A stretch of 64,000 bases of DNA. Origin: an uncultured Gammaproteobacteria bacterium. GTDB taxonomy: Bacteria > Pseudomonadota > Gammaproteobacteria > Arenicellales > CALHMG01. The position numbers and the translations under genes were made by a program. Below are positions 21,655 to 28,247 of the stretch, piece after piece. How positions within the stretch are numbered: the stretch's first letter is position 1; the number at the start of each line of letters is the position of its first letter. Where the stretch lies: NCBI GenBank assembly GCA_938034705.1, contig CALHMG010000027.1, forward strand, positions 42,784-106,783. Direction: 5' to 3'. Below the pieces are notes generated by a model. The model was not told the origin of the DNA, did not search any database, and was given only the letters and a program-made list of their open reading frames with translations.

Positions 21655-23193
21655 ATGAATCGTCTAAACACCGGCATATTCTCAATCGAATATCGCGCCA
21701 TCACTCTCGGGGTGCTGGTGGTGAGTCTGCTGTTGTCGGCCTGGGGGATCTGGGTCGACGACGTGATCAACAATGATGGCGTGGAGTATGTGCGCGCAGC
21801 CAGGCTGATAGAGGCCGGCGACATCGCAGGCTCGCTCAAGGTTTTCAAGTGGCCGGCCTATCCATCACTGCTTGCCTTAACGTCTACCGTCACGGGGCTC
21901 TCACACGAGTATTCGGCACACGTCGTTAACGCACTGTTTATCGGTGTGCTGTTACTCGCGTTCCTCGCAACCGTGCTTGAGCTTGGTGCAGATCGGCGAA
22001 CGTATATCGCCGCTGCGATCGTGATTTTGCTCGCACCCCGTATCAACGACTGGCGACCGTTTGTGATCCGGGACCCGGCGTATCTGGCTTTTTACACACT
22101 GGCAATGTTGTTCATGTTCAGGCAGATCAGATACGGAGGAATCGCCAACGGGTTAAAGAGTCTGGTCATGATGCTTGGCGCCGTGGCTTTTCGAATGGAA
22201 GGCATCGCATTTATCGTGCTGATGCCGCTGATGCTCGCGTTCAGTAACGCACAGAATCGATCGCGACGCGCGATGTTGATGCTCGCAGGCGGCGCGGCTT
22301 GTCTTGTACTCACCGCAGGCTTTGTCCTGTGGTTTGTTTCCCTTGGTGGTGGTTTGTCCGGCGCAAGAGAAGTCGAGACTCTGGGAGGTCTCTTTGCAAT
22401 ATCGTGGGAACAGCTCACGGCGACGCTTGCGGACAAACTCCATGTGATCGAAGAAGATCTGCTCGGAAAATATTCTGCGGACTATTCGGTAGCCGTGCTG
22501 CTGCTGACGCTTGTCGTCATCGTGTTCACCGAAGTCATCAAATCGGTGTCTCTGTGGACCGGGCTACTGGTGTTCTGGGCCTGGAGTCGCGACATGCTGT
22601 TTCCGGTGCAGGGTATGCGCAAGCCGTGGCTGCTGTTGCTGCTGGTTCACATGCTGGTGTTGATCATGTTCACACTGGTGAAGCTGTTTCTGAGTGAACG
22701 TTACTCGCTGGCGTTGACCGTAACGCTCCTGCTGGCGGCGCCATTCGGTTTGCTCGGGATCTATGAACTCTGGCGCCGAAACGTCAACAACGACCGAATG
22801 GTGCGCTATGCGTATCCGGTCCTGGTCTTTCTGATCGTTGTAGCCGGTATCGAAAGTCTTGGCCTGTTCACCGAGAAGCGTCACGTCAAGGCCGCCGGGC
22901 ACTGGGTCAGCGAGAACGCACGTCCCGGCGACCGTCTGTTTACCAACAGCAAGATTCTTGCTCACTACGCCGAACCGGCCAGCGCAGACGTCCGGGACGA
23001 ATGGCATCAGGTCATGTCGATGGTTCGCGCGGGGGACTGGAAGAACTACAGGTATCTCGCGATACGCGTGGGCCGACATAAAACGTTTCGGGCCGAGCGA
23101 TTGATTGACGCGATGAAATTAAAACCGCTTGAGCGATTCAAGAACGAGCGTGATGACCTGATTCTCGTGTTTCGAACGGCAGATACCGGCTAG
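21655..23193 (+). CDS. Polytopic membrane protein, GT-C/PMT-like glycosyltransferase candidate
   Basis: Many hydrophobic segments; NNDGVEYVRAARLI motif and RDPAYLAFYTLA loop. Confidence 0.6.
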   Translation: MNRLNTGIFSIEYRAITLGVLVVSLLLSAWGIWVDDVINNDGVEYVRAARLIEAGDIAGSLKVFKWPAYPSLLALTSTVTGLSHEYSAHVVNALFIGVLLLAFLATVLELGADRRTYIAAAIVILLAPRINDWRPFVIRDPAYLAFYTLAMLFMFRQIRYGGIANGLKSLVMMLGAVAFRMEGIAFIVLMPLMLAFSNAQNRSRRAMLMLAGGAACLVLTAGFVLWFVSLGGGLSGAREVETLGGLFAISWEQLTATLADKLHVIEEDLLGKYSADYSVAVLLLTLVVIVFTEVIKSVSLWTGLLVFWAWSRDMLFPVQGMRKPWLLLLLVHMLVLIMFTLVKLFLSERYSLALTVTLLLAAPFGLLGIYELWRRNVNNDRMVRYAYPVLVFLIVVAGIESLGLFTEKRHVKAAGHWVSENARPGDRLFTNSKILAHYAEPASADVRDEWHQVMSMVRAGDWKNYRYLAIRVGRHKTFRAERLIDAMKLKPLERFKNERDDLILVFRTADTG

Positions 23194-23930
23194 CGGTCGA
23201 GTATGGCCTGCAGCCGACTTTCAAACGTCTGGTGAATTTCGCTGGCGCTATCGAAGTTTCTCAGAAACCGGCGCCTGTCACGGGCGATTCTCGCAGTGTG
23301 CAGCGATTCATTCTGATAGTGGCGGGTGCTGTCGAGGTCGAGAAGATAGACGCGGCGTTTGTGAATCAGCCAGTTGGTTGCCTTGGTGTCTCCGTGGGCA
23401 ATGCGCGCCTGCTTGAGGCGAGAAAAGACCTGTTCAACCTGTTCGACAACGGGCTCGTCCTCTTGGTCGAGCGTCGTACGATTCGCAAACCAGTCCGAGA
23501 GCAGCATGCCAGGCAGGTACTCACACAGGTACCACGAGCGCAGTTTGACCGGTCCAAGGCAGTGCTCGACCGCTGCGATTGGCTGCGGGGTAAGAATGCC
23601 TGCGTCGAGTAAACGGTGCGCGTTGCGATAGCAGTGCTCTGCGCGGGATACGCGCAGCGATCGCTTCAGGGCGTGTTGTAACCCCTTGGTGTTGTAGCGT
23701 TTCACAACGACCGCACGACCATCGAAAGACGTAACGCCTACCGTGGATGTCCGGTCGTCCTTTAATATTTCGAGCCCCTGGCGCTGGCAGAACCGGTCTG
23801 GATCGATCATGAAGCGATCTACCGCCTGGGTGGCGACAGGCACATGACTCAGCAGTCGACGTCGCAGCGAACGGTGTTCGTGCGAGACCGCGGGCCCTGC
23901 TGGTGAGTGGACTGGCGACACGGCACTCAT
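23190..23930 (-). CDS. LPS-core WaaP/Kdo-kinase-like protein kinase fold
   Basis: VVVKRYN, RSWYLCEYLPG, IAHGDTKATNWLI, VYLLDLDST; ATGA overlap with the upstream gene. Confidence 0.8.
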   Translation of the reverse strand: MSAVSPVHSPAGPAVSHEHRSLRRRLLSHVPVATQAVDRFMIDPDRFCQRQGLEILKDDRTSTVGVTSFDGRAVVVKRYNTKGLQHALKRSLRVSRAEHCYRNAHRLLDAGILTPQPIAAVEHCLGPVKLRSWYLCEYLPGMLLSDWFANRTTLDQEDEPVVEQVEQVFSRLKQARIAHGDTKATNWLIHKRRVYLLDLDSTRHYQNESLHTARIARDRRRFLRNFDSASEIHQTFESRLQAILDR

Positions 23931-26026
23931 GTGACGTCAACGGATTCCTGACGCGAATTTTCCGCGCTCTGGCGAGCCCGTCGGCGGGCGGCGCGGCGGG
24001 CCTCCGTCTGGTACAGGGTTTTCGCCTTGCTGTCGACGCGTGTCCAGAACCCATGTTCGTTTTCCAGAATCTCACGCAAAGGCTTGGCGCGGTAAGCGCG
24101 CATGAAACGAAACAGGTCGCGCTGGCTGAGGCCGATCTCCATGCTCGAGTAATAAAGTCCGGCGATGTCTTTGATGATCCACCGTTGCGGTGTGCGTTTG
24201 CGAAGTTGCATACGGTGCAGATCGATGACAAAGAGACGTGAACTGTCGTCTACAACAATGGGTTCAGACGGCGTCTGGGAGTTGACGGTGGCGCGGGACT
24301 CGGCGTGATTTTGCGTGTCGTCGCCTTTGAGCAGGAAGTGACAGAGATAAAAGTCACGATGATTGGCACCGCTTGAGTGTAACGCTCTGCCGATACTGGC
24401 GACCTTATTGATAAGCCAGCGCTTGGTTTTCAGCGCCTCACCGCGCCGCGGCGGGTTTTCGTTCCAGCTGCGGCAGTAGTCTTCGAGGCTGATGGCAGAC
24501 GCGATCTCGTCCGTAAGGATAAATGAGTGGCGGCGAGCGGGATTGCCGGCGCTCGTGCCGTAGCCTGCGACATCGAGGGTGTCTATACCCAGACGCTTAA
24601 GCCAGTGAATGCCGTGCCATTCGTTTGTCGCGCCAAGAACGGGGAGTCTGAAGTAGGCGATGTTCTTGATGATTTCGCGCCAGCCGACACCGGTATGCGC
24701 TTTGAGGAAATAACCTGACCCTGATCCGTTGTCGCTTTCGAATCTGATTGTCTTGCGACCGGGCGCTTCGCGAAAGGTTTCGCCATGCAGTGCCATGATT
24801 TGTTCAATATTCGCGTCGTCGCCAAGAAGTTCGCGGATGTCATCGCGCAGATACAGCGAGTTTTTGTCCGTGATGTCTTCCACGACGGGTGGCGGAACAT
24901 CTGCGCGCTTGCGCGCCCAGTTCTCGATCTGATCGGCTGCGCTCTCGGGCATTCGATAAAGATCAGGGTCCTGACTGTAGGCTAGGCCGTTATCGCGCCA
25001 CGCAGGCATCGAACTGGACTCGAGCATCTGGGCCAGTCGCGAGTTGAGTCTGTCCTGGGAAAACGGTGACTTGAGAACCATGCCCGCGTTGGCACGCGTG
25101 ACGTGTGACGCATAGCCACACACGTCGGTGGTCAGTACTGGAAGCCCGGCGGTGATCGCCTCAAGCAGTACCGTGCCGGTATTTTCGCTGTACGCGGGAT
25201 GGATCAACAGATCTCCTGCAAACATCAGCTCGGCGATGTCATCACGGCCGCCCAGAAACCGCACCTTCGTCGCGAGGCCCAGGCTCTGCGCAAGGCGTCT
25301 GTAGCTTGATTCGTTGTCCTGACCGACGACAAACAGATTCACTCTGTCGAGCAGCGCTGGCGGCAGTGCTGCGGTAGCGCGAATGGCTCGATCGAGTCCC
25401 TTGGTTCTGAAGCCGGACCCGATAAAGAAAAGTGCCAGATCGTTCGGCGCGACTTCGAGCCTGGCACGCATGCTGTTTCTGATTTGCTCGCGGTCACCGT
25501 CGAGCAGACGCTGTCGATCCAGCGTTGGCGGTAACAGATGAAACCGACTTTCAGGTGTCGCGTAGTAATTCTGATAAACGTCCTTCTCACGTTCTGATAG
25601 CGACAGGATGCCGGTTTTGCTCTGAACGCCGAAGACAGCGCGCTCAAAGCCCGCCATGTTGTGGTAGCGCGGAGTCAGGCGATACAGGACAGGATATTTC
25701 GGTAGCGCGCGGCCGATGTAGCAATAGTCAGCGCCGTAGTACAGATCGAGCCCGGGCATTTTGTTGAAGCCGATGACGGCATCAAAGTCATGCTTCGCCA
25801 GTTCCTGTCGAAGCCGTCGATGGAACAGTGCATTTTGCGAGTGATTCATCCAGCGATGCGTTGGCAGCAGCGTGACGTCGATATTATCCGGACGGTCACC
25901 GTCCCACTCCGCTGCGAACACACTGACATCGTGGCCGCGTTGCTTGCACTCAAGTACCACACGCAGGAAATCCCGCGACAGGCCGCTATAGGGAAAGTAC
26001 TTGAAAAGACAGAAAGCGAGCTTCAT
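23927..26026 (-). CDS. WaaG-like LPS glucosyltransferase fused to WaaP-like heptose kinase (single ORF)
   Basis: N-term MKLAFCLFKYFPYSGLSRDFLRV...VIGFNKMPGLDLYYGADYCY...LLEAITAGLPVLTTDVCGYA (WaaG); C-term GYFLKAHTGVGWREIIKN...NHRDFYLCHFLL...VIDLHRMQLRKRTPQRWIIKDIAGLYYSSM (WaaP). Confidence 0.9.
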   Translation of the reverse strand: MKLAFCLFKYFPYSGLSRDFLRVVLECKQRGHDVSVFAAEWDGDRPDNIDVTLLPTHRWMNHSQNALFHRRLRQELAKHDFDAVIGFNKMPGLDLYYGADYCYIGRALPKYPVLYRLTPRYHNMAGFERAVFGVQSKTGILSLSEREKDVYQNYYATPESRFHLLPPTLDRQRLLDGDREQIRNSMRARLEVAPNDLALFFIGSGFRTKGLDRAIRATAALPPALLDRVNLFVVGQDNESSYRRLAQSLGLATKVRFLGGRDDIAELMFAGDLLIHPAYSENTGTVLLEAITAGLPVLTTDVCGYASHVTRANAGMVLKSPFSQDRLNSRLAQMLESSSMPAWRDNGLAYSQDPDLYRMPESAADQIENWARKRADVPPPVVEDITDKNSLYLRDDIRELLGDDANIEQIMALHGETFREAPGRKTIRFESDNGSGSGYFLKAHTGVGWREIIKNIAYFRLPVLGATNEWHGIHWLKRLGIDTLDVAGYGTSAGNPARRHSFILTDEIASAISLEDYCRSWNENPPRRGEALKTKRWLINKVASIGRALHSSGANHRDFYLCHFLLKGDDTQNHAESRATVNSQTPSEPIVVDDSSRLFVIDLHRMQLRKRTPQRWIIKDIAGLYYSSMEIGLSQRDLFRFMRAYRAKPLREILENEHGFWTRVDSKAKTLYQTEARRAARRRARQSAENSRQESVDVT

Positions 26027-26167
26027 TGAGCGAGTGAGAAAAACCGGCTGTGCGTGAAGCCGCTTTAAACACAGCCGAACGCATGGGTGATGCGCTGTAG
26101 TATACGTTTGCGCGCACACATTGCATCCGCAAGTCTGTACGGGTGATATGCAAACGATGAGTAAAAC

Positions 26168-27241
26168 TCAGCCGCGGCCGTTCTTTTCCCATTCAACAGC
26201 CGACCTGCAGATCAGCTCAAGGTCGTCAAATTTCGGCGAAAAGCCCAACGACTCCTTGATTCGGGTATTTGCGGCAACCAGCTCTGGCGGGTCGCCGGCG
26301 CGCCTCGGTCCATCGTCGACCTGAAAGTCGACGCCGCTGACACGCTTCACCGTGTCGAGAACTTCGCGAACGCTGTATCCGTGTCCATAGCCGCAGTTAT
26401 AGACATCGGAGCCGCCACCGTCGAGCAGATGCGAAAGTGCAGCAAGGTGTGCGGCAGCCAGATCCTCAACGTGAATGTAGTCACGGATGCATGTGCCATC
26501 GGGCGTGTCGTAATCATCGCCAAAAACCGTCACGTTATCCCGGGTGCCGGCCGCAGCCTGGCTGGCGATCTTTATCAGATGGGTCGCCGCCGGCGTGGCC
26601 TGTCCGAGCTCACCACTTGAGTGAGCGCCGGCGACGTTGAAGTAACGCAGCGCGACGTGTTTGAACTTTGAATTGCTTAGCGACACATCTCGCAAGAGCC
26701 ATTCGGTGATGAGCTTGGTCGCGCCGTAAGGGTTAATGGGACTAAGCGGGAGATCTTCGTGTGCCGGAATTTCCGGCGGCATGCCATACACCGCGGCGCT
26801 GGAGGAGAAAATAAAATTGTTTACGTCGTTTGCGACGCATTGTTCGACCAGGGTCTGCGACACGCGAACGTTGTTGCCGTAATACTTAAGCGGGTTTTCG
26901 ACAGACTCCGGAACAACGATGTGACCGGCAAAGTGTATGACCGCATCTATGGGGCGTGACTCGAAGATGCCGCTGATAACCGCGGGATCGCCGGCGTCGC
27001 CTTCAACGAACGTCGCGCCGTCGGCAATCGCCCATGCGTGTCCTGAATAAAGATTATCGACGACCGTGACCTCAAAACCGGACTCTCTGAGCAGCCTCGA
27101 CGTGTGTGATCCGATATAGCCGGCGCCGCCGGTGACAAGAACATGAGGCGAGGCGTTTGATGTTGCGTTGATGGCTTCAGTCCTCTTCGAGTTGGTTGGT
27201 AGCCTGATCAGCCTGGGGCAATTGTTGCGCCGCTGGCGCAA
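26168..27241 (-). CDS. galE: UDP-glucose 4-epimerase (start codon uncertain)
   Basis: VLVTGGAGYIGSHTSRLL, SSSAAVYG, INPYGATKLITEWLL, NCGYGHGYSVREVLD; 27241 is TTG, alternative ATC at 27172 has SD AGAGGA. Confidence 0.93.
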   Translation of the reverse strand: MRQRRNNCPRLIRLPTNSKRTEAINATSNASPHVLVTGGAGYIGSHTSRLLRESGFEVTVVDNLYSGHAWAIADGATFVEGDAGDPAVISGIFESRPIDAVIHFAGHIVVPESVENPLKYYGNNVRVSQTLVEQCVANDVNNFIFSSSAAVYGMPPEIPAHEDLPLSPINPYGATKLITEWLLRDVSLSNSKFKHVALRYFNVAGAHSSGELGQATPAATHLIKIASQAAAGTRDNVTVFGDDYDTPDGTCIRDYIHVEDLAAAHLAALSHLLDGGGSDVYNCGYGHGYSVREVLDTVKRVSGVDFQVDDGPRRAGDPPELVAANTRIKESLGFSPKFDDLELICRSAVEWEKNGRG

Positions 27242-28247
27242 TCGCGTCCAGTGCGGTGATCACAAGATCGGGGTGCAGCTTGTTCAGGCAGTCCATGTGT
27301 TCGAGCGGACACTCGCGTTTAAAACACGGTCGACACTCGAGTTCGATACTGACACTTTGAGCCAGGGTCGACAGTGGTGGTGTCATCGTTGGCGACGTTG
27401 AGCCATAGACGGCTGCGACAGGAAGTCCGAGCGCCGCCGCTACGTGCATCAAGCCGGAGTCGTTGGTGACGACAGCGTCGCAACCGGACAGCAGATCTAT
27501 CGCGTCTTCAAGGCGTGTGTCGCCAGCGAGATCGCGACCACGGCCGTCTATCATTCGATTGATTGTCGCGGTGACGTCGGCGTCTTTTTCGGATCCAAAC
27601 AGCCACACCTGCCAGCCGGCCTCAAGTCGGCGCTTTGCAACTTCGGCAAAGTGGGATTCAGGCCAACGCTTTGATGCGCCGAATTCTGCACCGGGTGCCA
27701 GGGCGAGCACCGGAGCGTCACTGCCGCCGAGGCCGAATCTCGCGCACGCGGATGCGAATGCATCAGCCGGTGGTTGCAGCCGCGGGATGGGCGGGTGTTG
27801 GGGTGGTTCTTCGTCGGCTTCACCAGCGAGGGAGACAAAACGTTGCACCGTTAACGGTAGCGCCTGCTTGTCGAGTTTGCGCAGGTCATTCAAAAGTCCG
27901 TAACGCTGCTCGCCGACGAAGCCCGTGCGTGTCGGGATTCTGGCAAAAAACGGCACCAGCGCGGCTTTGATCGAGTTAGGCAAAACGATCGCGTGATCGT
28001 ACCCCTGTCGAATAAGGCTACGGCCGAGTCGGCGCCGCGCCGCCAGTTTCAGCTCGCCATGGCCGAACGGTGACGCAATCGCGCTGGCGACTTCGGGCAT
28101 GCGATCGAGCAGGGGACGGGTCCAGGCAGGTGCGAGGACGTCGATATGGGCGGCTGAATCCATCGACTTCAGCGTCATGAACAGACTCTGTGCCATGACC
28201 ATGTCGCCCACCCAGGCGGGGCCTACGATGAGATAACGGTTCGCCAT
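27177..28247 (-). CDS. waaF: ADP-heptose:LPS heptosyltransferase II
   Basis: RYLIVGPAWVGDMVMAQSLF, LAPGAEFGASKRWP, VTNDSGLMHVAAALGLPVAAVYGSTSP. Confidence 0.95.
   Translation of the reverse strand: MANRYLIVGPAWVGDMVMAQSLFMTLKSMDSAAHIDVLAPAWTRPLLDRMPEVASAIASPFGHGELKLAARRRLGRSLIRQGYDHAIVLPNSIKAALVPFFARIPTRTGFVGEQRYGLLNDLRKLDKQALPLTVQRFVSLAGEADEEPPQHPPIPRLQPPADAFASACARFGLGGSDAPVLALAPGAEFGASKRWPESHFAEVAKRRLEAGWQVWLFGSEKDADVTATINRMIDGRGRDLAGDTRLEDAIDLLSGCDAVVTNDSGLMHVAAALGLPVAAVYGSTSPTMTPPLSTLAQSVSIELECRPCFKRECPLEHMDCLNKLHPDLVITALDAIAPAAQQLPQADQATNQLEED

Follow-up and report, generated by a model that had tools for sequence, protein, structure and literature searches.

The window (the whole stretch of DNA analysed here, 64,000 nucleotides) carries an LPS core operon with the gene order glnE, waaF, galE, waaG::waaP and a gene for a further kinase (kinase 2), and the same order was found in relatives (Table 1). 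The fused gene waaG::waaP, with galE directly upstream of it in the operon, is read from an ATG at 26026 to a stop codon ending at 23927 with zero internal stops. An upstream GTG at 26119 would give a longer frame; the ATG is the likely start, because relatives begin with M(K/R)LAF. WaaG-type enzymes transfer a hexose to O-3 of HepII and WaaP/RfaP-type enzymes phosphorylate O-4 of HepI, and each is a textbook enzyme.

Table 1 Features of the LPS core operon in the window
Feature	Coordinates	Strand	Basis or remark
waaF, heptosyltransferase II	27177..28247	-	TIGR02195, 448.6 bits
galE, UDP-glucose 4-epimerase	26168..27241	-	TIGR01179, 449 bits
Fused gene waaG::waaP	23927..26026	-	699 aa; domain and structure matches, kept in relatives
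WaaG domain (GT4), residues 1-369	24920..26026	-	Structure matches and pocket residues
WaaG donor-pocket residues of the fused protein			R18, D19, Y97, R173, T208, K209, R261, E281, N282, T283, T285, E289
Interdomain linker, residues 370-391 (WARKRADVPPPVVEDITDKNSL)	24854..24919	-	Unconserved
WaaP/RfaP domain, about residues 392-681	23984..24853	-	NCBIfam, structure match, residues
Kinase 2, 246 aa, Kdo/WaaP family	23190..23930	-	Pfam, 44.5 bits; 4-nt overlap with waaG::waaP

An earlier note on this DNA had described one uninterrupted ORF in which a complete WaaG-like part and a complete WaaP-like part meet near 24880-24960. This description was borne out, since both halves of the 699-aa product score above family cut-offs and keep their catalytic residues, and the linker lies inside or beside that interval. 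Pfam placed GT4 domains at residues 15-340 and a Kdo/WaaP domain at residues 409-645. In a search of solved structures, residues 3-367 matched P. aeruginosa WaaG (8b5s, E 3.5e-113) and residues 2-367 matched E. coli WaaG (2iv7, E 2.1e-99). Residues 393-673 matched P. aeruginosa WaaP (6dfl, E 7e-64), the C-terminal part alone giving E 3.2e-65, and the NCBIfam model RfaP (NF011703, curated cut-off 170 bits) scored 323.9 bits over residues 391-680, covering profile positions 3-266 of 268. Judged by its sequence, the fused protein is a complete WaaG-type GT4 glycosyltransferase and a complete RfaP/WaaP heptose-I kinase on one chain. It is the sole WaaP in the window genome, and further GT4 matches elsewhere in that genome are weak. 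An AlphaFold model made from a two-sequence alignment (pLDDT 39.7, pTM 0.28) was discarded.

The 22-residue linker showed a mean pairwise identity of 11% among 41 fused proteins of the order, compared with 55% for the WaaG domain and 53% for the WaaP domain. Since the linker is unconserved, no specific interface between the domains is indicated. Neither the in-frame GTG (residue 382) nor the ATG (residue 411) near the junction has a Shine-Dalgarno-like sequence upstream, and an internal start making free WaaP is thus unlikely.

Kinase 2 fell below the cut-off of every NCBIfam model, with Bud32 and Kdo kinase as the best at about 35 bits, and its orthologue is kept beside the fusion in relatives. 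Relatives often have a second heptosyltransferase gene between waaF and galE, which the window lacks; another family-9 glycosyltransferase of the window genome is located on contig C54. Convergent with the core operon, positions 21655-23193 (+) encode a 512-aa hydrophobic protein that is probably a multi-spanning membrane protein. It had no Pfam or NCBIfam match, is kept beside the core operon in relatives (L021, L092, L107, L113), and might be a membrane glycosyltransferase.

Occurrence of the fusion and possible coupling of the two steps

Relatives were searched for the same architecture, as the earlier note had advised. The order of the window genome comprised 110 genomes, 74 of which matched the query, and by our count a single open frame spans both halves in 62 of the 74 (40-62% identity). 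The remaining 12 consist of six cut by contig ends, one with a frame break (G410), two in which WaaG is joined to another kinase (G004, G014) and three unfused relatives from one genus (f9/g20) with WaaG or WaaP alone. Six f12 genomes of the order (G011, G019, G025, G029, G031, G036) gave no WaaG or WaaP match at E 1e-30, and could thus differ considerably in their LPS core. Two of these six are single-contig genomes.

Outside the order, both halves were found in 38 genomes of an even class-wide sample of 369 (our own count). They are encoded by separate genes in 32 of the 38, mostly adjacent in the order waaG-waaP. In the other six they are joined or were once joined: G367, G155 (family f127), G090 with its frame-broken relative G332 (both f62), G396 (f163) and G132 (f104), the last being a contig fragment with a linker of about 100 residues. 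WaaG is joined to kinase 2 in G004 and G014 (family f5), which have no WaaP above cut-off in the genome, G014 being only about 75% complete. WaaP is joined to kinase 2 in G056, G118, G150 and G266. Proteins of about 730-805 aa from G175, G042, G401 and G381 join WaaP and kinase 2 through a middle part whose similarity to kinases was only weak in a profile scan.

Several individual loci display these arrangements. At L054:2918-4804 (-) and L055:3093-5003 (-), from genomes that have no WaaP above cut-off, WaaG runs straight into the second kinase and the WaaG half carries D19V and R173N. WaaP-kinase 2 loci with no middle domain lie at L106:2673-4172 (-), L132:2962-4344 (+), L129:4294-5877 (+) and L130:3898-5469 (-), and apparent WaaP-middle-kinase 2 loci occur in other families of the class at L107:3351-5534 (+), L124:4902-7127 (+), L128:4129-6546 (-) and L131:3851-6088 (+).

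In trees based on the WaaG half, G004 and G014 branch within the order's fused clade. This suggests loss of their WaaP domain, after which the WaaG part ran on into kinase 2; placing f5 outside the fused clade was not rejected (p 0.354). For WaaG alone, the AU test gave no clear decision on whether the WaaG–WaaP fusions all go back to one event (p 0.215). On the concatenated halves, grouping the order with G396 was rejected (p-AU 0.029), whereas grouping all fusions (p 0.117) or the order with f127 (p 0.687) was not, and the unfused sister G191 grouped with G396 at 98% support. The value for G396 supports a fusion that arose separately from that of the order. With several tests made, the trees point marginally to at least two independent WaaG–WaaP origins.

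The neighbours waaG, waaP and kinase 2 are joined in several combinations across related bacteria, and WaaG and WaaP therefore probably act side by side as a unit in the cell. It is possible, though doubtful, that in Gram-negative bacteria at large WaaG and WaaP associate physically with the next kinase, and that the fusions are covalent versions of such an assembly; the inner core would then be handled by a multienzyme unit and not by free enzymes.

E. coli WaaP is known to work poorly in the absence of WaaG. Mutants of E. coli that lack waaG lose about 60% of their HepI phosphorylation (PMC8510554), and another account gives a decrease of 80% in inner-core heptose phosphorylation upon loss of WaaG (PMC4810412), so the kinase step depends on the sugar step. 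The coupling of the two steps that the earlier note read from the fusion is thus plausible. However, the "obligate coordination" it suggested is too strong, since the three f9/g20 relatives are unfused and most class members with both enzymes keep separate genes. Nothing that we found supports its other suggestion, substrate channelling, in a strict sense; the short, unconserved linker fits better with a flexible tether than with a built tunnel or a conserved interface.

A fusion that is neutral, or that matters at the level of expression only, is a less probable, though by no means remote, alternative to coupling by proximity. It would result from read-through of two overlapping genes, supply the two enzymes in equal amounts and perhaps improve WaaP folding, with no kinetic gain from proximity. 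The unconserved linker agrees with it, as does the insolubility of P. aeruginosa WaaP without acyl-ACP (PMC6147952), and the fusion is mutationally easy, because waaG and waaP are already adjacent and often almost touching or overlapping in unfused relatives. However, the fusion is kept across most of the order, and the same neighbours have repeatedly been joined otherwise in other families, suggesting a benefit of togetherness.

Catalytic residues and the probable donor sugar

Residues G15, R18, D19, R173, K209, R261, E281 and E289 of the WaaG nucleotide-sugar site, with roles as described previously (PMC10579960), are all identical in the window protein, as is G284, and F13 of the uracil pocket is replaced by a conservative Y. 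Positions 97, 208, 282, 283 and 285 separate the UDP-GalNAc-using WaaG of P. aeruginosa from the UDP-Glc-using WaaG of E. coli (PMC10579960). The window protein has Y, T, N, T and T at these positions, five out of five being of the P. aeruginosa type, and lacks the E. coli-type UDP-Glc set (F97, R208, A282, A283, I285). Given these donor residues and the adjoining galE, the name "glucosyltransferase I" used in the earlier note is probably wrong for the WaaG half, and UDP-GalNAc is the better guess for its donor, with GalNAc as the transferred sugar.

Transfer of glucose, as in E. coli, or of galactose appears unlikely. The adjoining GalE also yields UDP-Gal, and crystals of P. aeruginosa WaaG show that its pocket can take up UDP-Glc, UDP-Gal or UDP-GalNAc (PMC10579960). 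However, T208, N282 and T283, and not R208, A282 and A283, accompany the use of UDP-GalNAc, and P. aeruginosa WaaG given the E. coli residues came to use UDP-Glc instead (PMC10579960). A P. aeruginosa variant, PaWaaG-5mut, failed to complement E. coli ΔwaaG (PMC10579960).

In the WaaP half, K51, E78, H161-R162-D163, Y165, H168, D188-L189-H190 and R191 (P. aeruginosa numbering) are all identical; in P. aeruginosa, WaaP that has lost one of these residues mostly fails to support growth (PMC6147952). Of seven residues in contact with acyl-ACP, six are kept (K140, R141, R222, R226, R229 and R237), and the seventh, R221, is replaced by Q. The WaaP half also has a variable, poorly conserved loop at about residues 567-596 of the window protein and a basic C-terminal tail. 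Across 44 fusions from the order, the kinase residues hardly vary, and those of WaaG are mostly constant too.

A lack of catalytic residues in either half, which the earlier note had named as grounds for rejecting its reading, was not seen in the alignment to the P. aeruginosa enzymes. Halves can decay, as shown by the relatives of family f5, in which WaaP has been lost and the WaaG half has D19V and R173N, but an inactive half that serves only as a docking platform is very improbable here, because the window protein keeps every tested catalytic residue of both halves and the change from F13 to Y is conservative. That an assembly error or a frameshift joined waaG and waaP has a negligible probability: although the window genome is a draft of 380 contigs and frame breaks are present in two relatives (G332, G410), the same full-length frame in 62 genomes of the order rules it out, sequence conservation extends to either side of the junction, and a public MAG contig (CAMYJT010000001.1, L021) also has the fusion, in the same gene setting (the one relative returned by a scan with one query sequence).

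Frame breaks within the fused gene lie at L134:1155-3244 and L042:1091-3015, in two draft genomes. An apparent 262-residue N-terminal extension at L005 is a low-complexity, out-of-gene reading and was ignored.

Proposed mode of action and comparison with known systems

We propose with good confidence that the fused protein is a bifunctional inner-core LPS enzyme in which the WaaG step and the WaaP step are held together by a flexible tether and not by a closed channel. On the cytoplasmic side of the inner membrane, HepII of the heptosylated lipid A-Kdo core would receive one sugar from the WaaG domain; most likely this is GalNAc, its donor UDP-GalNAc being provided through GalE. The tethered WaaP domain would then use ATP to phosphorylate HepI on the same acceptor or on one nearby, probably with acyl-ACP bound to it as a structural cofactor. 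The fusion would set the two activities at 1:1 and keep both together on the membrane, with proximity provided by the tether. It would have arisen when read-through merged two genes that lie side by side, waaG before waaP, in most other members of the class, and it is maintained across the order.

In the open literature searched, with subscription papers and domain-architecture databases outside the scope, there was no description of a WaaG–WaaP fusion or of the related joinings; automatic annotation may well list such fused proteins already. The joined form appears to be new, and the separate halves were already known. The integrity of the outer membrane depends centrally on HepI phosphorylation, and P. 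aeruginosa cannot do without WaaP (PMC6147952). The natural WaaG–WaaP fusion and the repeated fusions of neighbours provide comparative-genomic evidence that the enzymes act as a unit, and the fused protein supplies single-chain constructs for structural and enzymatic study of two drug-target enzymes. If the general assembly were true, LPS inner-core modification would be done by a multienzyme unit and not by free enzymes.

The fused protein resembles known WaaG/RfaG (2iv7 of E. coli; 8b5q, 8b5s, 8b62 and 8b63 of P. aeruginosa) in its full-length match, the E-X7-E motif (E281/E289), K209 and the UDP-contacting residues, and its donor pocket resembles that of the P. aeruginosa enzyme. However, known WaaG is a separate chain of about 370 aa, whereas the fused protein carries a C-terminal kinase. 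With WaaP/RfaP (6dfl; NF011703) it shares all mutation-tested P. aeruginosa kinase residues and most acyl-ACP contacts; WaaP as previously known forms a chain of its own, about 265 aa long, whereas here WaaP comes after WaaG. HldE, a bifunctional heptose kinase/adenylyltransferase, likewise performs two LPS heptose-handling steps on one chain. It is an analogy only, since HldE acts on a soluble sugar and its domains are unrelated to those of the WaaG–WaaP protein. Compared with the Pseudomonas core cluster waaF-waaC-waaG-waaP-wapP-wapQ (PSPTO_5003-4997 in P. syringae; PMC8005017), the window has waaG and waaP fused, galE inserted, one further kinase gene and no second heptosyltransferase in the cluster, but both share the order of heptosyltransferase, waaG, waaP and further kinase or kinases.
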